64,000 nt of DNA, from assembly GCA_030692565.1 (NCBI GenBank), contig JAUYAO010000008.1, positions 1-64,000 on the forward strand. Direction: 5' to 3'. How positions within the stretch are numbered: position 1 is the stretch's first letter; every line of letters begins with the position of its first letter. A program made the translations under genes and the position numbers. This document shows positions 15,721 through 64,000 of this stretch, one piece after another. The notes below the pieces were generated by a model, which saw only the letters and a program-made list of their open reading frames with translations, was not told where the DNA came from and ran no database searches. Source of the DNA: Nitrospira sp. (lineage in GTDB: Bacteria > Nitrospirota > Nitrospiria > Nitrospirales > Nitrospiraceae).

Positions 15721-16413
15721 ATGAGTGAGCCAACTACAGAGCCGGTGTCTGTCGAGGAGAGCGGCGACAAGGTCGTCATCTACTGGGAGCGGGAGTATTC
15801 GACCGCGTTTCCACCGGAGCGGCTGAAGCTGGATTTCAATCCGCACCGTCCGATGTTGAACAACATGACGCTCGATGAACAGCGAGGGCTCGCCGCCGGC
15901 GGGTATAAGGTGTTGCCGGACGACTGCGGCCCGGTCCGCACGGTCGGCAGCTATGGCTGGCTGATCCGGTGCCCGGCGGATGTCAAACTGCGCCGGACGG
16001 CCGATGGGGTCAGATGGCAATCGCCGCCCATCCAGCCGGAAGAGCGGTTGCTCGGATACAAATCGTTTTCCGGGACGTACGTCGATCTGATCCTCAACAG
16101 CGGCTATCCCAAGCTCTGCTGCGGGATTCGCTTTTACTATCCCAAGCATGTCGGGCTGATGATGAAGGACATTCCCAATCACTTCTATCATTACCCTGAG
16201 CGCACTTATGCCATCTGGGAAGGCATTAAGACCCAGGAATATAAGCGCACCCCGAATCAGTACGACTGGCTGCCGGACTATGAGGCCTTCACGGCCAATT
16301 TCCTGCTCCAACTTCACAAGCCCACGACCATCAAGCGTGGCGATCCCATCGGATTAGTGCTTCCTGTCATGCTGCCGAAGCAGTTCTCCCTCGAAGAAAT
16401 CAAGCGCCCCTAG
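15721..16413 (+). CDS. Hypothetical protein (possibly DUF6065-like)
   Basis: A 230-residue soluble protein, starting at ATG 15721 with only a short gap after the previous gene. Many aromatic residues and the segments GSYGWLIRCPADV, KLCCGIRFYYPKHVGLMMKDIPNH and IKRGDPIGLVLPVMLP suggest a compact all-beta enzyme-like fold. The overall pattern reminds me of DUF6065, but I cannot confirm that. Function unknown. A palindromic repeat starts at the very next base after the stop. Confidence 0.65.
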   Translation: MSEPTTEPVSVEESGDKVVIYWEREYSTAFPPERLKLDFNPHRPMLNNMTLDEQRGLAAGGYKVLPDDCGPVRTVGSYGWLIRCPADVKLRRTADGVRWQSPPIQPEERLLGYKSFSGTYVDLILNSGYPKLCCGIRFYYPKHVGLMMKDIPNHFYHYPERTYAIWEGIKTQEYKRTPNQYDWLPDYEAFTANFLLQLHKPTTIKRGDPIGLVLPVMLPKQFSLEEIKRP

Positions 16414-16587
16414 CAGGATGCTCAAAAAGTCCGCCAGCGGCGTTCTCGCGTCGCTCAGAGGCTCAACGTACGGAAAGGCAACCGGAGGCAATGGACCTCT
16501 CCGCTCGCTGCGCCTTGCCCGCGGAACGGCGCGTCTCGGCGCGCCGGGGTTGGGCGGGTGAGAACGGTGGCCTTTTTGAGCATCCTG
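16414..16587. repeat. Gene-end palindromic repeat, copy A (174 bp)
   Basis: Perfect 16-bp terminal inverted repeats: CAGGATGCTCAAAAAG (16414-16429) and CTTTTTGAGCATCCTG (16572-16587). The interior contains CAGCGGCGTTCTCGC and GGAACGGCGCGTCTCGGCGCGCCGGG, shared with copy B. It begins at the base after the stop codon of the upstream gene. It probably folds into a long hairpin that ends transcripts. Confidence 0.88.
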
Positions 16588-16703
16588 CCGTGATTGATGG
16601 ATTCAATCCTGTCCTCTAGGTTCTCGACATCGTTTGTCCCTCAAGTGTTTTTGCCATAAACCGATACAGGTAGTGGTTCCGCATGCCGGGAGGGGGAGGG
16701 GCT

Positions 16704-17900
16704 ATGCGAAAAGTCTTGTTCGTAGATGACATGCCGGAAGTCCTGCGCATGTTGAAGCGCACGCTCGACCCGATCAAGGGCGAGTGGGACATGCGTTTTG
16801 TGGAAAGCGCGCCGGAGGCCCTGGCCGTAATGGAACAGGATGCGTTCGACGTGCTGGCGACCGACATGATCATGCCGGGGATGGACGGGTTCCAACTGTT
16901 GAAGGAAGCCAAGGCCCGGTATCCGCAGATGGTGCGCATCGCCTTCTCCGGCCAGCAGGGGCAGAGCCTGGGCCTGCGCTCGACCGATCTGGCGCATCAG
17001 TTTCTTGAAAAGCCCATCGATGCGCAACTCTTGCGGTCGATCATGATCCGCGCCTGCGGGCTGCGGGCGCTGTTGTCCGACGACAACGTGCGCAAGATTG
17101 TCACCAATCTCAAGTGCCTCCCCAGCCTTCCGGTGCTCTATAAAGAATTGATGGATGAAATCCATTCCGGCGATGCCTCGCTCAAGAAGATCGCCAAGAT
17201 CATCTCCAAAGATATGGCGATGGTGACGAAGATTCTCCAACTGGTGAACTCCGCCTTTTTCGGATTGCGCACGACGGTGTCGAATCCCGAGCAGGCGGTG
17301 GCCTTGCTCGGCAGCGACACGATCCGGTCTCTCGTGCTGTCTATGCAGGCCTTCTCCCAGTTTGATGCCAAGGCGTTGCCGGGCTTTTCACTCGAGGCCT
17401 TGTGGCAACACGGGCTGAAAACCAGCGGCTATGCGAAAGCGATCGCAAAGGAAGAGCGCGTCCCTCAGGCCATGATCGACGATGCCTTCACGGCGGGACT
17501 ATTGCACGATATCGGCATGCTGGTGTTGGCGAGTAACATGCCTGACGGGTACAAACAGGTATTGGGACTTCAGAAGGATAAGGGCCTGCTCGACTGGCAG
17601 GCGGAGCAGGAGGTGTTCGGCGTCACCCATGCTGAAGTCGGGGCCTATCTGTTGGGACTGTGGGGAGTCGGCGAAGCGATCGTCGAAGCCGTCGCCTATC
17701 ACCATCGGCCATCCGTCTGCGACGAGCTGGCGTTCAGTCCGCTCACCGCCGTGCATGTGGCCAATGTGCTGGCTGAGAGTGAGCAGCCTATGGGAGAGAG
17801 CGGCACATCTCTTTCAATAGATGAAGCCTACCTGACCAAGCTGGGGAAATTGGATCAGCTTGCAGCGTGGAAAGAAGCCTGTCAGCCGGACGAAGAGTAA
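16704..17900 (+). CDS. Response regulator with HDOD output domain
   Basis: A 398-residue protein: an N-terminal receiver domain (MRKVLFVDDMPEVLRML; phosphoacceptor Asp in VLATDMIMPGMDG; conserved Lys in FLEKPID), then an HDOD domain from about residue 135 (LPSLPVLYKELMDEI ... LLHDIGMLVLASNMPDGY). REC-HDOD proteins regulate stress, motility or cyclic-nucleotide signalling by protein contacts rather than DNA binding. ATG 16704 is preferred over 16683 because GGGAGGGG lies just before it. No partner kinase is adjacent. Confidence 0.88.
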   Translation: MRKVLFVDDMPEVLRMLKRTLDPIKGEWDMRFVESAPEALAVMEQDAFDVLATDMIMPGMDGFQLLKEAKARYPQMVRIAFSGQQGQSLGLRSTDLAHQFLEKPIDAQLLRSIMIRACGLRALLSDDNVRKIVTNLKCLPSLPVLYKELMDEIHSGDASLKKIAKIISKDMAMVTKILQLVNSAFFGLRTTVSNPEQAVALLGSDTIRSLVLSMQAFSQFDAKALPGFSLEALWQHGLKTSGYAKAIAKEERVPQAMIDDAFTAGLLHDIGMLVLASNMPDGYKQVLGLQKDKGLLDWQAEQEVFGVTHAEVGAYLLGLWGVGEAIVEAVAYHHRPSVCDELAFSPLTAVHVANVLAESEQPMGESGTSLSIDEAYLTKLGKLDQLAAWKEACQPDEE

Positions 17901-55083: not shown

Positions 55084-57114
55084 ATGAGAATCCGAACCAT
55101 TCGAGGACGTATCGTATTAGCCATTGTGCTGGTGGGTTGTATCCCCCTGCTGATCGGTCTTGTGCTGGCCTATGTGTCGGGCATGCGTTCGTTGCGGGAC
55201 GTCATCGGTGGCAATCTTGAGGCCGTGGCGGTTCAGGCGGCCGATCGCGTCACAATGTTGGTTCAGAGCGAAGTGCAGGGTGTGCGGTTGCTTGGCACGG
55301 CGCCGTTGCGAGTGCGTCAGCCGGTCGAGACGGCCAATAATTCGTATCCGGAGGATCGTGCGAAGGCGCAGGCGCTGATCACGGAGCGGATGCAGGTGTG
55401 GGAAAAAGGCGGGGACGGTGTCAGGCGGCTGTTGAATGCCGAACTGTCGCGATTCCTCCTGGAAACCAAAGTGCGCGACGGGGATAAAGTCGTCGGCCTA
55501 TTGATCGCCGATCAACACGGGGCGCTGGTGGCGGCGAGTTCAGAGCCCGACCACTACTCATTTGAAAAAGAGACCTGGTGGACGGCCATTCATGCGGGGG
55601 GCGTCGATCAGGTCTACGTCAGCGGGCTGATTCCCGCGCAGGAAGGATCCTTCAGGACGCCCGAGGAAACCATCGACATTGCCGTGCCGATTCTCGACGA
55701 CCGGCAGCACACCATCATCGGGGCGGTGAAGGCCTCCTATCGGTTCGACAGTCTCTTCGCGATGATCAATCAGATCCGGATCGGGCAGACCGGCCACGCG
55801 ATGCTCTTCGATGCGGCGGGCAATCCGCTCGTCTGTCCCATCCTGCCCCGGCAGGCCCATCGTATTCCCGCTCAATTGATGACGATGATCGTGTCTTCGC
55901 AGCCGGGATGGGGCAATGCGGAGGATGACGGGCATGGGGCGACGGATACGGTCGTAGGGTTTGCGCCGGTTACCGGTCTCCCCCTGCCGGACAATTCCTG
56001 GCATATCTTTGTGCGGCAACAGCCGGGAGAGAGTTACGCGCCGATTCGGGATCAAATACGGAACCTGGCAGCGATCGGCCTGGTGATGCTGGGGCTGCTT
56101 TGGGCGATGGGGCGCTATGTGGCCGCGAGGATTGCCCGTCCGATTCAGATTCTCCAGACCGGTGTGGAAGCGATTAGCCAGGGCACCTACGACCGCCCGT
56201 TGAACATCCAAACAGGGGATGAATTCGAGGAACTGGCCGCCGCCGTCCATCGGATGGCCGACCGGCTGAAGGCGTCGCGTGTGGAGCTGGAGGCGTTGAA
56301 TGCCGATCTGGCCAGGCGCGTCGAGGAAAAAACCGCCGAAGTGACGGAGCAAATGAAAAAGCTGCAGTTCGCCGAACGGCTCGCGACTCTCGGGAAAGTG
56401 GCCAGCGGGATCGCTCATGAAATCAATAATCCGCTGGGGATCATTCTGAACCGGATCGAGTGTATGGAGTTGGAGGCGGCACAGCTGCGCCTGTCGGACG
56501 AGCAGCAACGGGACCTGCTGGCGATCCGGACCCAGGCCGACCGTATTTCCCGGGTCACCAAGAGTATGTTGGCCTTGTCCCGGGGATCGGCCACCGTGTT
56601 GAAACCCATGGACCTGAATTGCGTGCTTCGGGCCTGTGTGGAGGCGTCGAAGGATCGGGCTGCGGTGAAAGGCGTGCGTATCGAAACGGCGTTGTCCCGG
56701 GACGTGTTGCCGATCATGGGCGATCGAGACCGGATTGAAACGGTGATGTTGAACTTGATCAACAACGCGCTCGATGCAGCCCAGGAAGGCGTGCCGCCCG
56801 GCCTTGTGACCGTTGAGTCTGAAGGCTGTCCGGGCAAAGAGGGTGATCTGGCAGTGGTGCGGATCAGCGATACGGGGCCGGGCATCCCTCAGGAGATGCT
56901 GGGACGCATCTTCGACCCGTTCTTTACGACGAAGGATGAGGGGCAGGGCACCGGCCTGGGGTTATTCCTCAGTTACGGCATTGTGGCCGATCATCGTGGA
57001 CGTCTTGAAATCGACAACGGCCGGCGCGGGGCCGTGGCGACGGTATCTCTTCCCGCGCTGGTGTCGGTTACGGAATCGCAGCAGGAGGCCGGATGGGAGC
57101 AGGTAAGATACTAA
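55084..57114 (+). CDS. Membrane sensor histidine kinase (Cache-HAMP-HisKA-HATPase)
   Basis: A 676-residue NtrB-like kinase. Membrane helix about 9-29, a large periplasmic Cache-like sensor domain to about 325, second helix (AAIGLVMLGLLWAMGRYVAA), HAMP, a coiled coil, then the H-box GKVASGIAHEINNPLGIIL with His445, N-box LINNALDAAQEG and G-boxes SDTGPGIP and GQGTGLGLFLSYGI. It overlaps the next response regulator by 22 bp, so that protein is its likely partner. The signal is unknown; a periplasmic one fits the downstream oxidase. Confidence 0.92.
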   Translation: MRIRTIRGRIVLAIVLVGCIPLLIGLVLAYVSGMRSLRDVIGGNLEAVAVQAADRVTMLVQSEVQGVRLLGTAPLRVRQPVETANNSYPEDRAKAQALITERMQVWEKGGDGVRRLLNAELSRFLLETKVRDGDKVVGLLIADQHGALVAASSEPDHYSFEKETWWTAIHAGGVDQVYVSGLIPAQEGSFRTPEETIDIAVPILDDRQHTIIGAVKASYRFDSLFAMINQIRIGQTGHAMLFDAAGNPLVCPILPRQAHRIPAQLMTMIVSSQPGWGNAEDDGHGATDTVVGFAPVTGLPLPDNSWHIFVRQQPGESYAPIRDQIRNLAAIGLVMLGLLWAMGRYVAARIARPIQILQTGVEAISQGTYDRPLNIQTGDEFEELAAAVHRMADRLKASRVELEALNADLARRVEEKTAEVTEQMKKLQFAERLATLGKVASGIAHEINNPLGIILNRIECMELEAAQLRLSDEQQRDLLAIRTQADRISRVTKSMLALSRGSATVLKPMDLNCVLRACVEASKDRAAVKGVRIETALSRDVLPIMGDRDRIETVMLNLINNALDAAQEGVPPGLVTVESEGCPGKEGDLAVVRISDTGPGIPQEMLGRIFDPFFTTKDEGQGTGLGLFLSYGIVADHRGRLEIDNGRRGAVATVSLPALVSVTESQQEAGWEQVRY

Positions 57115-58508
57115 TCGTCGATGATGAAGTCGATGCGCTGGACAACTGTCGCCGCATCTTGAGCCGGTTGGGGTATGACTGTTCGACGGAGCACGATCCG
57201 TTGCGCGCCGTGCAACGGATACAGCTGGAGCGTCCCGATCTGGTCTTTACGGATTTGCGCATGCCGGGCCTTGACGGGATCGGCCTGTTGGTTGAGGCAA
57301 AACGGGTGGATCCCAGGATCAACGTGGTCTTGATGACCGCCTATGCCACCGTGCAGACCGCGGTAGCCTCCATGCGGTATGGCGCCTTGGACTATGTGCT
57401 GAAGCCCTATACCAGTCAGATTTTGGAAGCGGTGGCCAGACGGGCGTTTGAACAGACCGGATCGGCACCCGCCGGCGCTCTCTCCTGGGCCGGTCTCGAC
57501 GGACCGGCGGGGATTTCTGGCACCGGCGATATGAGCGCCATCGGGCGCATTCTTGGGCGGAGCCTGGCGATTCAAGAGGTGAAGGATCTCATCAAGAAAG
57601 TTGCGCGGACGGACGCCAATATTTTGATCTATGGCGAAAGCGGGACGGGTAAGGAATTGGTGGCTCGGGCCATTCATGATGAAAGTGAGCGGACCCGCCA
57701 GCCGTTCATTCCCCTCGATTGTGTCGCCATGCCGGATACGTTGCTTGAATCGGAGTTATTCGGCCATGAGAAGGGGGCGTTTACCGGGGCGCATGCGGCG
57801 AAGGTCGGCCTCTTCGAAATGGCCAATCACGGCACGGTCTTTCTGGACGAAGTCAGCGGAATGAGTCAGGCCCTCCAATCGCGACTGCTTCGCGTGTTGC
57901 AGGAGCGCCATGTGCGTCGTGTGGGCGGGACACGCTATGCGGACATCGACGTCCGGGTGATTGCCGCGTCCAATCGCGATTTGGAAGAAGCCTGCCGAAA
58001 GGGCGAGTTCCGGGAGGATCTGTATTATCGGCTGAACGTGATTCCCATTCTGCTGCCGCCGTTGCGGGAACGTAACGGGGATGTTCAGGTGTTGGCGCAG
58101 GAGTTTCTCACGCGCTATCGCGGGCGGGGGAGCGCCGGGTCAGAAGCTCAGCCGGCGTTCGACCCGGCGGCCCTGGCCTGCTTGAAGGCCCATCCGTGGC
58201 CCGGCAATGTCCGGGAGCTCCAGAATGTGATCGAACGGGTGGCGGCGCTGGCCGATGGACCCACGATTCGGGCCGAGCATCTTCCCGAGCGGATTCGCGC
58301 GGCGCGCGCGGAGGAGTCGTCGGCTGAAGAGGCGGCATCGTACAAACATGCCAAGCAGGAAGTCGTCCGTTCGTTCGAACGCAGTTTTCTCCTGGAGCTT
58401 TTGAAACGCCATGACTGGCACATGAGCAATGCGGCGCAAGAGGCCGGTGTGGATCGTAAAACGATCGAGCGCATGGTCAAGCGGCATGGCCTTCGCGAGC
58501 CCGGTTAG
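57093..58508 (+). CDS. NtrC-family sigma-54 response regulator (complete)
   Basis: A 471-residue activator: receiver domain (ILIVDDEVDAL, Asp54 in VFTDLRMPGLDG, Lys in YVLKPYT), AAA+ domain with Walker A GESGTGKELVAR, the sigma-54 contact loop EKGAFTGAHAAK, Walker B TVFLDEVSGM and FREDLYYRLNVIPI, and a Fis-type HTH at the end (HMSNAAQEAGVDRKTIERMVKRHG). All parts for activating sigma-54 promoters are present. It probably acts at the palindromes at 58644 and 60177. Confidence 0.94.
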   Translation: MGAGKILIVDDEVDALDNCRRILSRLGYDCSTEHDPLRAVQRIQLERPDLVFTDLRMPGLDGIGLLVEAKRVDPRINVVLMTAYATVQTAVASMRYGALDYVLKPYTSQILEAVARRAFEQTGSAPAGALSWAGLDGPAGISGTGDMSAIGRILGRSLAIQEVKDLIKKVARTDANILIYGESGTGKELVARAIHDESERTRQPFIPLDCVAMPDTLLESELFGHEKGAFTGAHAAKVGLFEMANHGTVFLDEVSGMSQALQSRLLRVLQERHVRRVGGTRYADIDVRVIAASNRDLEEACRKGEFREDLYYRLNVIPILLPPLRERNGDVQVLAQEFLTRYRGRGSAGSEAQPAFDPAALACLKAHPWPGNVRELQNVIERVAALADGPTIRAEHLPERIRAARAEESSAEEAASYKHAKQEVVRSFERSFLLELLKRHDWHMSNAAQEAGVDRKTIERMVKRHGLREPG

Positions 58509-58716: not shown

Positions 58717-58823
58717 TCTATTGCTCTATGGTTTGCAGTGGTCATTTGGAAGTACTTTTTTCGGGGAGTCGGACACAAGCTGATTTCGGCAGAGGGGCGG
58801 GCGGCTGAGGAGTGGGTCGGACG

Positions 58824-60029
58824 ATGGTAGCGGAAAAAATATTGATTGTGGACGATGAACCGGAGGCCATTGAAAATTGCCGCAGGATTCTGAGCCGGCA
58901 CCGGTACGAGTGCGTGGCGGAAGCCGATGCCCACCGGGCTCTGGAGATCATCGAGCGGGAACGGCCTCAGGTGTTGCTTACGGACATCCGGATGCCGGGT
59001 CTCGACGGCATCGAATTGTTGAAGGCTGCTAAGCGCATTGATCCCGCAATCAAAGTGGTGCTGGTGACCGCCTATGCGTCCCTTCAGACCGCGGTGGAGT
59101 CCATGCGCTTCGGGGCTTTCGATTACCTCGCCAAGCCGTTTACGGGCAAAGAACTGCGCGGAGTGATTCAGCGGGCGCTCGGGGAAGATTCAGTCCATGT
59201 GAATGAGGAGGAGCCGGCGACAGCTCCACCGGCCTCGCGCGTGAGTCAGATTGTAGCGGCAGAACCGGTACTGGCGGGCGACACTCCCTCGATCTGCGCG
59301 GTTCGCGGTGTGATTGAGCGCATCGCCCAAACGGAGGCTGCCGTGTGGCTGTTGGGTGAAAGCGGGACCGGAAAAGAGCGCATGGCCCGCGTGATTCATG
59401 CCGGCAGTCTTCGTCGGTCCAAACCCTTCATCTCGGTTGACTGTCAGGCCTCAGACGAAGCCCTCGTCGAATGGGAGTTGTTCGGCGGGCTCGCGTCGCA
59501 GGGTGTAAGAGCGGGTAGCGCCAGGACAGGGTTGTTGGAATCTGCGGATGGAGGGACCTTGTTCCTGGATGAAGTTGAGGCTCTGAGTGTGCGGCTCCAG
59601 GCCAAGCTCCTGCGGGTGTTGAAAGAGCGACGGGGACGCCGAGGAAACGGGGCCACCTTCTATCCGCTGGATGCGCGGGTCGTGGCCGCGTCCACGCATG
59701 ATCTTCGAAAGGCCTGCCATGCCGGGGAGTTTCGAGAGGATCTCTATCAATATCTGAGCATTGTGCCGATCGTGGTGCCGCCGTTGCGTCAACGTGTGGA
59801 GGATATCGATCTCCTGTCGCGTCGATTCATGGAGCCGCTGTGGCTCAGGAAACATCGGACGCTGCCTTCTGTATTCGGCTTTACTCCGGACGCGCTGGCC
59901 CGGTTGAGTGAGTATAGCTGGCCCGGCAACGTGCACGAACTGCAGCGCGTGGCAGAGCGCGCGGTCGTATTGGCCGATGGGCCGGTCATCGATCGCTCGT
60001 ACCTTCCCGATAATATTCAGGCTGAGTAA
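58824..60029 (+). CDS. NtrC-like response regulator lacking GAFTGA and HTH
   Basis: A 401-residue paralogue of the preceding regulator. The receiver domain is intact (ILIVDDEPEAI, Asp54 in LLTDIRMPGLDG, YLAKPF). The AAA+ domain keeps Walker A (GESGTGKERMAR) and Walker B (TLFLDEVEAL), but the sigma-54 loop GAFTGA is replaced by SQGVRA without a length change. The protein ends at SYLPDNIQAE, so the ~65-residue Fis-type HTH is absent. It probably cannot activate sigma-54 itself; it may compete for phosphate or oligomerise with the complete activator. ATG 58824 chosen; GTG 58812 possible. Confidence 0.88.
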   Translation: MVAEKILIVDDEPEAIENCRRILSRHRYECVAEADAHRALEIIERERPQVLLTDIRMPGLDGIELLKAAKRIDPAIKVVLVTAYASLQTAVESMRFGAFDYLAKPFTGKELRGVIQRALGEDSVHVNEEEPATAPPASRVSQIVAAEPVLAGDTPSICAVRGVIERIAQTEAAVWLLGESGTGKERMARVIHAGSLRRSKPFISVDCQASDEALVEWELFGGLASQGVRAGSARTGLLESADGGTLFLDEVEALSVRLQAKLLRVLKERRGRRGNGATFYPLDARVVAASTHDLRKACHAGEFREDLYQYLSIVPIVVPPLRQRVEDIDLLSRRFMEPLWLRKHRTLPSVFGFTPDALARLSEYSWPGNVHELQRVAERAVVLADGPVIDRSYLPDNIQAE

Positions 60030-60292: not shown

Positions 60293-60307
60293 TGGCACTG
60301 TTATTGC
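60293..60307 (+). promoter_or_regulatory. Sigma-54 promoter of the multicopper oxidase gene
   Basis: TGGCACTGTTATTGC: TGGCAC and TTGC with exact GG-N10-GC spacing, matching the -24/-12 consensus except one base. About 210 nt of leader follow before the ATG. Confidence 0.78.
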
Positions 60308-60321
60308 GCTAGGAGTCTCAC

Positions 60322-60392: not shown

Positions 60393-60529
60393 CCTTATTG
60401 TTTTTGGAACGAAGCATGTTCGCCGGCAGCGGCGAGGCCGGCGAGAGTCGTGGACGATCGCAGCGGGGCAGGGTCAATCTCAGCCCGCCGTCCGGAAGAG
60501 GGGCGGCGGTGGAAGAAGGAGGCTGTAGT

Positions 60530-63500
60530 ATGAGAAAGGTATCGGGTTCGCGCAGTTGCCGCGCTCACCGCATGGCAGCAAGTCTGCCGGCAGCGCTGCT
60601 CGTCAGCAGTCTGCTGGCATCCCCGATGGGACTGGCCGCAGACCAGCATGGCCACCACGGCGACGTGGGGGAGGCATCGGCGGAGAAAGTGATTTATCGC
60701 GAGGGCGGATCGGTCTTGCATGACCGCATGATGGAGGAGGTCAAGCGTCAGCAGGAATCGATCGGTCAAAAAGGCGGCTACAGCACAGGCGCCAACAGTC
60801 ACATGTTGCAGCAGGGTGTCCTCCTGGTGACGGAGGATCCGGCGAAAGTCGCAGTGTCGGGCGGGCAGCGCTGTCCGGCTACCGCTCCAGTGAAAGACTA
60901 TCACGTCTCGGCGATCAACATCGAAATCACGCTGAGCCGGTTCCTCGACTATTTCCCCGGCTACATGTATGTGCTGACGGAGAACGTCGAGAAGGCCCGC
61001 GGTGAAGAATCCGTGAACAAGGCGGCGCGGGACAAGGACAACGATCCCGGCGCCTCGACGAACGGGTTGCAGGGCGACATCATCCAGCCCCTCGTGATCC
61101 GGGCCAACCAGGGCGATTGTCTCAAGCTCACGTTGCACAACGACATCAAGGAAGAGCCGACGAATCTCGTGATCAACGGCTCGTCGATGGTGGTGGCGGC
61201 GACCGGCAAGCCGGCGACGCCGTCAAATGCAGACGCCACTGTACAGCCGGGCGCCAGCCAGGCGTTCGAGTGGTACATCAAGCCGGACACCCAGGAGGGT
61301 GCTCGGTTCCTCCGGTCGCATGCGTCACGCGACCAGTTCAACCAGGGCTTGATCGGTATGCTCGTCGTGGAGCCGCGCGGCTCACGCTATCTCAGCCCGT
61401 TCGACGGCCAGCCGATGGCCAGCGGGTGGGAAGTCATGATCGAAGATCCGAACGGCGCGGACTTCCGCGAGTTCGCGATTTTCTATCATGAAGCCGGCGA
61501 CGAAGCGTTCCGCCTCTTGAACAAGAAGGGCGAAATGCTGCCCCAACGTGATCCCCACACCGACTCGTACCGCCCCGGTGCGAGGCTGCTGAACTATCGC
61601 AGTGAACCGCACGGGACGCGCATCGAGTTGCAGGCCCACATGGGCTTCTACGGCGATGAGTCCATGGCCTACGGGTCCTACACGTTCGGCGACCCGGCCA
61701 CGACCGTTCCTCGATCCTATCTCGGCGATCCGGCCAAGTTCCGGATGGCGGGCGGGTCGGAAATCGTGCACTCACACCATCTGCACGGCGGCTCCATCCG
61801 CTGGGCGCGCCAGCCGGGCAACAGCAATCTCGACTTCGCGGCCTCCAGCAACGGGCCGGTGAAGTTCCCGCTCATCAGCGACACCTCCGATCGGTTGGAC
61901 GTCCAATCCATCGGTCCGACGGAGATCTACGATCAGGTGATCGAAGGCGGATCGGGTGGCTTGCAGGCATTGGCCGGCGAGTTCGTGTTCCATTGCCACA
62001 TCCCGCAGCACTATGTGACGGGCATGTGGGGCTTCTGGCGCGTGTACAACACGCTGCAGCAGCCGGGCTTCCAGACCGACGTGATGAAGCCGTTGGTCGA
62101 ATTACCGGACCGGATCGGCCGCATGAAGGCGGGTCTGTCGAGCGACAAGCTCGTCGGGACCACGGTCGATTGGTACGGCGGCAAGAAGTTCGAAATCACC
62201 AAGGACAAGACCGATTGGAAGGCGACTCCGGCCAAGGTCTCGGTGAAGGATTGGGTTGAAATGCAGTTGCCGCCGCAAGGCAAGCCGGGTCACAAGAACA
62301 CCGAGAAGGAACAGACCTTGGCCTACGATTCGACGGTCAACGACTGGGGGTGGGACGGCGCCAAGGCGCTCACCGAGCCGGAGACCGGGTATGACTGGGT
62401 GAACTATAAGTCGCCGACACCGGGGAAGCGGACGGATATCCTGTTCGATCCGCGCAGCGGGAAGCTGTCCTGGCCGTGGCTGAGGCCGCATCTCGGACGG
62501 CGCGTGCCCTTCTCACCGAGCCACAGCGGCGCGCCGTGGCTGGAGCCGATCCATCGGCGCGAGGACGGCAGTAACTCGACGGAGCCGTCCAAGCCGGGGG
62601 AAAACGGGCCCTGGAGCTTGTGTCCGGAAGGGGCTCCTCTCAAGAAGTTCAACATCCACGCGATCACCTTGCCGATCACGTTGAAGCAGGCGACGGCCAA
62701 GACACCGGCGATCGTGGATCCGGATGGATTGCTCTATGTGCTGCATGAAGAAGAGCAGGAAGTCCGGAAGAATCCGGCCAAACAGATGCCGCTGGTGATC
62801 CGCGGCAACGTGCAAGATTGCATCGACGTCGTGTACAAGAGCGAGTTGAAAGATGATGCGCGGCAAGGGTTCTCCAGCAAGACGAACCTGCACCCGCACA
62901 TGTTCCAGTTCGACACGCAGGCGTCGGACGGTCCCATCATCGGCTTCTCCTATGAGATGTCGTTGCGGCCCTTCACGATTCTGAAGGACGAGCATCCTGG
63001 CAAAGGCATGCCGGTTCCGATGAACACGACGCTGGACGCGGATGCCGCGAAGGGCGCGACCAGCATCAAGGTGAAGGATGCCTCCCGGTTCCACGTCAAG
63101 ACCGAATTGGGCGTGGGCATGGACGAAGTGGAGGGATTCGAATCGGCCCGCATCAGCAAGATCGACGGCAACACCATCACCTTCGAGCGGCCGCTGAAGT
63201 ATGAGCACAAGAAAGGCGAGATTGCGTCCGTGGAATGGATCCGCGAGCGCTGGTATGTGGACGCCGATTTCGGCACCACCTTCTGGCACGACCATGTGTT
63301 CGGCCTGGACGGCTGGGGCCACGGCTTCTACTCCACCTTCATCGCCGAACCGCCGCGGTCCACCTATCATGACCCGGTGACCGGGAAAGAGCTGCGGAGC
63401 GGGCCGGTGGCGGACATTCACACTACCGAGCCGGTGTCCGCGCATATCCGGGGCTCCTTCCGTGAAATCGTGACGCAGGTCATGGATTCCAATCCCCGGA

Positions 63501-64000
63501 CCTCGGAGCTGATCACGGCCGATAATCCACAGGCGAGAGTGGGGGCCGTTTCGGTGGACGGGACTCCGTCCGCGGTCTATCCGGCCAAACTCAACCTGTC
63601 GCCGATGAAGTTTTTGAACGGCGGCGAAGCGACGACCGGGGGCGGCTTCAATATGCGCGTGGAGCCGTTGTCGGTGCGGTTAGCGAACAATCCCGATCCG
63701 TCGCAGCTGTTCAGCAGCCGGATCCACGGCGATCCCGAGACCCCGATGTTGCGGGCGTACCTGGGCGATCCGATCGTGGTCCGGTTGATCGAAGGATCGG
63801 CCAATGAAGTGCATTCCTGGCACATCAGCGGCCACTGGTTCCCGATGGAGCGGTACAGCAAGAACTCCATTCCCAGGAGTTCGCTGCACGTGGTGATCGG
63901 CGAGCGGTACGATGCGGCCATTCCGGCCGCAGGAGGACCGCAACAGATGGCGGGCGACTACCCCTACTACAGCGGTCGCGCGTCGCATTTCGTGGAAGGC
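60530..64000 (+). CDS. Very large multicopper oxidase (MnxG-like size), partial at window end
   Basis: At least 1157 residues, still open at the window edge. A Sec signal (LPAALLVSSLLASPMGLAA) implies periplasmic or exported location. Copper motifs: VHSHHLHG (H414-H419), HCHIPQHYVTGM (H488-C489-H490, H494, M499; the joint type 1/type 3 motif HCHxxxHxxxxM), HPHMF (H788/H790), WHDH (H920/H922) and HSWH (H1095/H1098). Several cupredoxin domains must be present. Size and layout recall Mn(II)-oxidising MnxG-like enzymes; copper, iron or nitrogen-related substrates are also possible. Start ATG 60530 behind AAGGAGG. Confidence 0.87.
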   Translation, partial: MRKVSGSRSCRAHRMAASLPAALLVSSLLASPMGLAADQHGHHGDVGEASAEKVIYREGGSVLHDRMMEEVKRQQESIGQKGGYSTGANSHMLQQGVLLVTEDPAKVAVSGGQRCPATAPVKDYHVSAINIEITLSRFLDYFPGYMYVLTENVEKARGEESVNKAARDKDNDPGASTNGLQGDIIQPLVIRANQGDCLKLTLHNDIKEEPTNLVINGSSMVVAATGKPATPSNADATVQPGASQAFEWYIKPDTQEGARFLRSHASRDQFNQGLIGMLVVEPRGSRYLSPFDGQPMASGWEVMIEDPNGADFREFAIFYHEAGDEAFRLLNKKGEMLPQRDPHTDSYRPGARLLNYRSEPHGTRIELQAHMGFYGDESMAYGSYTFGDPATTVPRSYLGDPAKFRMAGGSEIVHSHHLHGGSIRWARQPGNSNLDFAASSNGPVKFPLISDTSDRLDVQSIGPTEIYDQVIEGGSGGLQALAGEFVFHCHIPQHYVTGMWGFWRVYNTLQQPGFQTDVMKPLVELPDRIGRMKAGLSSDKLVGTTVDWYGGKKFEITKDKTDWKATPAKVSVKDWVEMQLPPQGKPGHKNTEKEQTLAYDSTVNDWGWDGAKALTEPETGYDWVNYKSPTPGKRTDILFDPRSGKLSWPWLRPHLGRRVPFSPSHSGAPWLEPIHRREDGSNSTEPSKPGENGPWSLCPEGAPLKKFNIHAITLPITLKQATAKTPAIVDPDGLLYVLHEEEQEVRKNPAKQMPLVIRGNVQDCIDVVYKSELKDDARQGFSSKTNLHPHMFQFDTQASDGPIIGFSYEMSLRPFTILKDEHPGKGMPVPMNTTLDADAAKGATSIKVKDASRFHVKTELGVGMDEVEGFESARISKIDGNTITFERPLKYEHKKGEIASVEWIRERWYVDADFGTTFWHDHVFGLDGWGHGFYSTFIAEPPRSTYHDPVTGKELRSGPVADIHTTEPVSAHIRGSFREIVTQVMDSNPRTSELITADNPQARVGAVSVDGTPSAVYPAKLNLSPMKFLNGGEATTGGGFNMRVEPLSVRLANNPDPSQLFSSRIHGDPETPMLRAYLGDPIVVRLIEGSANEVHSWHISGHWFPMERYSKNSIPRSSLHVVIGERYDAAIPAAGGPQQMAGDYPYYSGRASHFVEG

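Follow-up and report, generated by a model that had tools for sequence, protein, structure and literature searches.

We have identified in the genome of a Nitrospira species a giant gene (P0001) whose product, by our reading, is an exported six-cupredoxin copper oxidase built like MnxG that would reduce O2 with electrons from a metal ion, Mn(II) being favoured; we give this reading a probability of about one half. Metal-ion oxidation dependent on O2 is the likely function predicted from the sequence, because a complete set of copper ligands within an MnxG build is best read as an O2-reducing metal oxidase. Mn(II) is favoured because of the architecture, the link of subfamily A, to which P0001 belongs, with the Manganitrophaceae, and a sigma-54 regulation like that of Mn oxidation in Pseudomonas. 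That nitrite-oxidising bacteria possess MnxG-like oxidases is already known; relative to the literature that we found, the ligand map, the division into subfamilies A and B with their distribution, the sigma-54 sites and the cupredoxin companion appear to be new. A nearly class-wide family, with subfamily A linking Nitrospira to the Manganitrophaceae and usually lying by a blue-copper gene, offers concrete proteins to test for Mn.

The window, by which we mean the whole stretch of 64,000 nucleotides that was analysed (C8:1-64000 within a 4.17 Mb assembly), ends inside the gene (Table 1). From the ATG at 60530, with an in-frame TTG also at 60398, the frame remains open to the window edge with a codon-position GC of 0.60/0.45/0.82, as is usual for coding frames. 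It could be completed on the same contig as far as the stop at C8:65281, giving a protein of 1583 aa and confirming the giant oxidase gene of the preliminary description. Judged by eye, the N-terminus carries a hydrophobic stretch ending SPMGLAA, and the protein is probably exported. Three paralogues are encoded in the same genome: P0002, about 4.5 kb beyond P0001 on the same contig and 70% identical to it, and P0003 and P0004, which lie elsewhere and share 52% and 51% identity. The closest named relatives of P0001 come from Nitrospira MAGs, and kinship makes the host a likely nitrite oxidiser. A comammox host is unsupported, as a query that detected amoA in five relatives gave no hit in this assembly.

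Table 1. Coordinates of the oxidase gene, its copper sites and its regulatory and accessory neighbours (window positions unless a locus is named)
Feature	Position	Strand	Basis or remark
Giant six-cupredoxin multicopper oxidase, subfamily A (P0001)	60530..64000	+	residues 1-1157 of 1583
Probable signal peptide, residues 1-37	60530..60640	+	read by eye
Unit 1, domains 1-2, residues 112-560	60863..62209	+	internal repeat z 24-37; aligns to MnxG 3-377
HSHHLH, residues 414-419: type-1 H414, trinuclear H417, H419	61769..61786	+	invariant
HCHIPQHYVTGM, residues 488-499: trinuclear H488, H490; type-1 C489, H494, M499	61991..62026	+	
Unit 2, domains 3-4, residues 695-1180, cut by window edge	62612..64000	+	repeat; MnxG from 444
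HPH, residues 788-790: trinuclear ligands, domain 3	62891..62899	+	alignment, invariant
HDH, residues 920-922: trinuclear ligands, domain 3	63287..63295	+	alignment, invariant
Sigma-54 -24/-12 promoter-like site TGGCACtgttaTTGCG	60293..60308	+	enriched upstream of subfamily-A relatives
Sensor histidine kinase: dCache, HAMP, HisKA, HATPase	55084..57114	+	homologues upstream of several relatives
NtrC-type sigma-54 activator, intact GAFTGA, C-terminal HTH	57093..58508	+	
Degenerate NtrC-type regulator, GVRAGS for GAFTGA, without HTH	58812..60029	+	
Secreted plastocyanin-like and carboxypeptidase-regulatory-like protein	L007:7068-7841 and 15760-16614		

The full protein has six cupredoxin domains arranged as three two-domain units in tandem, at residues of about 112-560, 695-1180 and 1186-1583; the pairwise scores of these units lie 24-37 standard deviations above those of shuffled sequences. 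All type-1 copper ligands (H414, C489, H494 and M499) fall in domain 2, and the trinuclear histidines are divided between domain 2 (H417, H419, H488 and H490) and domain 3 (H788, H790, H920 and H922). By alignment, each of the twelve ligands has its one-to-one counterpart in the MnxG of Priestia, H414, H417 and H419 of the HSHHLH motif corresponding to H280, H283 and H285; none is missing, and all twelve are invariant across 14 diverse family members. The abundance of copper-type His motifs that had been claimed is borne out. The portion of P0001 within the window contains six HxH pairs against a shuffle mean of 1.57 (P 0.0035), one of which, HGH at residue 40, corresponds by alignment to no copper site. 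A single HCHxxxHxxxxM occurs in the same portion (P 5e-5 against shuffles); it had been placed in the first half of the protein and lies within the first third of the full sequence. A conventional three-domain oxidase such as laccase, CueO or CopA can accordingly be set aside, with HCH at residue 488 of 1583 rather than at the C-terminus and the domain-1 pairs lost. These pairs, HxHG and HSH, are kept in deep members of the class and in Manganitrophaceae, and each of the four copies in this genome is without one or both of them. Were the units to form a ring like those of ceruloplasmin, domains 1 and 6 would be brought together. The interface between these two domains carries the trinuclear cluster in ceruloplasmin; the C-terminal unit of P0001 contains neither HCH nor HxxHxH, and that placement of the cluster is not seen here.

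Among PDB sequences the best match to P0001 is MnxG, 9BXA (phmmer E 1.3e-98 against 7.8e-6 for the next), and the alignment spans the whole protein with the domains in the same order. This match, together with the correspondence of the ligands, bears out the MnxG-type layout first suggested from the size of the frame and the position of its motifs. In the 9BXA entry the type-1 histidine reads alanine, for which the H340A mutation named in its title would account. The Priestia megaterium protein used for the ligand map has 1228 residues, scores 1705 bits against 9BXA and is preceded by two small genes, as in mnxEFG. A structure model of 1045 residues of P0001 reached a mean pLDDT of 51, probably because the underlying alignment was shallow, and was used for fold ranking alone; with this low-confidence model Foldseek placed 9BXA on top (E 7e-30 against 1e-8 for the next). 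P0001 nevertheless scores 113 bits (E 5e-33) against the NCBIfam MnxG model NF041487, whose curated equivalog cut-off is 3100 bits, and the 6469 ORFs of the loci retrieved included no convincing homologue of mnxE or mnxF. P0001 may thus at most work like MnxG and should not be given that name.

Phylogenetic analysis placed the Nitrospiria proteins in one clade, with a Streptomyces protein adjoining and the MnxG and haloarchaeal proteins further off; since the long outgroup branches meet in this quick tree, we use only two of its results, the single Nitrospiria clade and its division into two subfamilies. The comparison with MnxG that had been proposed could be made, and it sets the Nitrospiria proteins apart; the other proposed reference, MopA, is a haem peroxidase (PMC6247904) and hence offers no meaningful phylogenetic comparison. 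Subfamily A, which includes P0001 and P0002, carries the motif HCHIPQH, and subfamily B mostly HCHVAHH. Across a sample of the phylum the family is present in 89 of 246 genomes, all of them from the same class or nearer, and the family-negative genomes among those printed all lie outside the class. Within the class it occurs in 96 of 98 sampled genomes (86 of the 87 good assemblies), including genomes of 1.7-1.8 Mb, subfamily B being the near-universal one. Beyond the host family, Nitrospiraceae, subfamily A was detected in Ca. Manganitrophaceae and in one other family; identity of at least 60% to P0001 was seen there, among the matches listed, only in family f8 and in one genome of family f41. 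Two Manganitrophaceae contigs, L121 and L122, bear subfamily-A copies that are 60-61% identical to P0001; as the copy on L121, so named, is 91% identical to that of f8, the latter is very likely Ca. Manganitrophaceae. The nearest relative found outside Nitrospirota is a 1772-aa protein encoded on a plasmid of Streptomyces sp. NBC_00335 (L140:7308-12626), which adjoins a copC gene. A gene for a PQQ-like repeat protein (L044:10934-12115) separates the A and B oxidase genes of a Manganitrophaceae-like genome.

Sigma-54 control, proposed in the preliminary description, is supported by a promoter-like site, by enrichment of such sites among relatives and by the adjacent NtrC-type activator. The single site TGGCACTGTTATTGCG at 60293-60308 is within chance for a window of 64 kb. 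Sites scoring at least 12 precede 48 of 61 A genes, against a frequency of 9% in mononucleotide shuffles; for B genes the count is 8 of 25, against 11%. Both counts come from related, non-independent genes. The genome has an RpoN gene, and subfamily A is probably switched on by sigma-54. The degenerate NtrC-type regulator is possibly a modulator. In Pseudomonas, Mn oxidation depends on sigma-54: an rpoN::Tn5 mutant is non-oxidising and can be complemented, and the regulator MnxR is itself predicted to be sigma-54-dependent (PMC11409713).

Downstream of both P0001 and P0002 lie genes for a secreted cupredoxin, a small protein and an SMBP-like small metal-binding protein, the last recognised by a match (E 7e-6) that falls slightly short of the Pfam cut-off. 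Where loci contain enough sequence, the cupredoxin gene follows in 44 of 57 A loci and 22 of 24 B loci, and all 101 of the family members aligned share its copper ligands H, C, H and M. The protein has no convincing PDB relative by sequence; its model (pLDDT 86) consists of a plastocyanin-like domain at residues of about 113-207 adjoining a carboxypeptidase-regulatory-like sandwich. The subfamily-A clusters also encode a conserved secreted protein of 167-176 aa that matches no family (L007:7828-8358 and 16618-17121). Genes of the FGE-sulfatase (formylglycine-generating-enzyme-like) type recur next to the oxidase clusters, at L007:9518-10438 on the minus strand and in many relatives.

By analogy with multicopper oxidase chemistry, a reductant would pass single electrons, one by one, to the type-1 copper, from which they would reach the trinuclear cluster over the His-Cys-His bridge and there reduce O2 to water. 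As the reductant we favour a metal ion, most probably Mn(II) followed by Mn(III); Fe(II) and Cu(I) are alternatives. Induction of expression would probably run from the upstream kinase via the NtrC-type regulator to RNA polymerase with sigma-54. Gene order and fold suggest that the plastocyanin-like protein is probably a redox partner or relay and that storage or delivery of copper may fall to the SMBP-like protein.

Other functions have to be weighed against this reading. A role in nitrogen-oxide chemistry, for example as a nitrite reductase, had been raised; it would suit a likely nitrite oxidiser, and the cupredoxin pairs give fold matches to NirK. We found no specific support for it and regard it as very improbable: the NirK match is far weaker than that to MnxG (1.7e-7 against 7e-30), and P0001 has the full set of eight trinuclear histidines known from oxidases that reduce O2, unlike the NirK layout of a two-domain subunit without the type-3 pair. 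More can be said for copper homeostasis, in which toxic periplasmic Cu(I) would be oxidised and the SMBP-like and cupredoxin proteins would act as copper buffers. Both genes are in the cluster, a two-component system governing a set of copper proteins is in keeping with copper stress, and some distant relatives adjoin copC genes. A Met-rich segment, the hallmark of CueO-type cuprous oxidases, is nonetheless not found in the part of P0001 within the window, and the parts of the cluster that were examined showed no recognisable copper-efflux gene; we consider this role unlikely.

Defence against oxidative stress, by making Mn(III) that destroys superoxide or by consuming O2 with cupredoxin electrons, is likewise, in our view, unlikely. 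The 2013 Nitrospina genome paper describes a periplasmic MnxG-like oxidase in Nitrospina gracilis, conserved in Ca. Nitrospira defluvii and similar to the Mn oxidase of Bacillus SG-1, for which Mn(III)-based protection against reactive oxygen was proposed (PMC3578206). Near-universal occurrence in the class, small genomes included, fits such a housekeeping role, which nevertheless leaves unexplained why A exists as an extra set with sigma-54 sites beside near-universal B. Oxidation of Fe(II), or electron transfer at the outer surface, would recall Geobacter OmpB and Leptothrix MofA, multicopper proteins of the outer membrane or the cell exterior to which roles in reducing Fe(III) oxides and oxidising Mn(II) have been ascribed (PMC5566968); with both the kinship of P0001 to these proteins and an outer-surface location putative, we think this improbable.

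Oxidation of Mn(II) with O2 remains our preferred reading for P0001. In the literature that we found, Nitrospira is nowhere described as oxidising Mn. This, together with the presence of the family in nearly all genomes of the class, suggests that the ancestral substrate may have been broader than, or other than, Mn; the near-universal occurrence of subfamily B in particular speaks against Mn in the ancestral role. It is tempting to go further and imagine subfamily A as the Mn(II)-oxidising component of Manganitrophaceae Mn lithotrophy, passing electrons to the plastocyanin-like partner, with the same sigma-54-controlled module operating in Nitrospira. Growth driven by Mn(II) has recently been shown in Ca. 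Manganitrophus, the enzymes being unproved, and oxidases serving it would need to hand their electrons to a carrier in the periplasm instead of straight to O2 (PMC9040806). We hold this extension to be a long shot; if true, some nitrite oxidisers could gain energy from manganese.

Several known systems provide points of comparison. Each Manganitrophaceae genome encodes two novel multicopper oxidases, and the leading hypothesis for Mn lithotrophy there assigns the main route not to these but to Cyc2 and PCC_1 (PMC9040806); linked by contig name, the A copies on L121 and L122 likely correspond to these oxidases. The MnxG-like oxidase of Nitrospina and Ca. Nitrospira defluvii, matched by its description, very probably belongs to the P0001 family, and its account in the accessible text of PMC3578206 is without subfamilies, ligand map, partner protein or regulator. 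Human ceruloplasmin (PDB 2J5W) shares the three tandem two-domain units, whereas the cluster ligands of P0001 reside in domains 2 and 3 and not in the first and last domains. The closest parallel is MnxG itself (Bacillus sp. PL-12, 9BXA; the plasmid mnx operon of Priestia megaterium), which shares with P0001 the order of its six cupredoxin domains, an aligned set of four type-1 and eight trinuclear ligands, and a cluster whose ligands are split between domains 2 and 3. Unlike MnxG, of about 1220 aa, P0001 extends to 1583 aa with about 20% identity to 9BXA in the fold alignment; it has a sigma-54 promoter-like site, and its loci carry cupredoxin and SMBP-like genes where the mnx operon has mnxE and mnxF.
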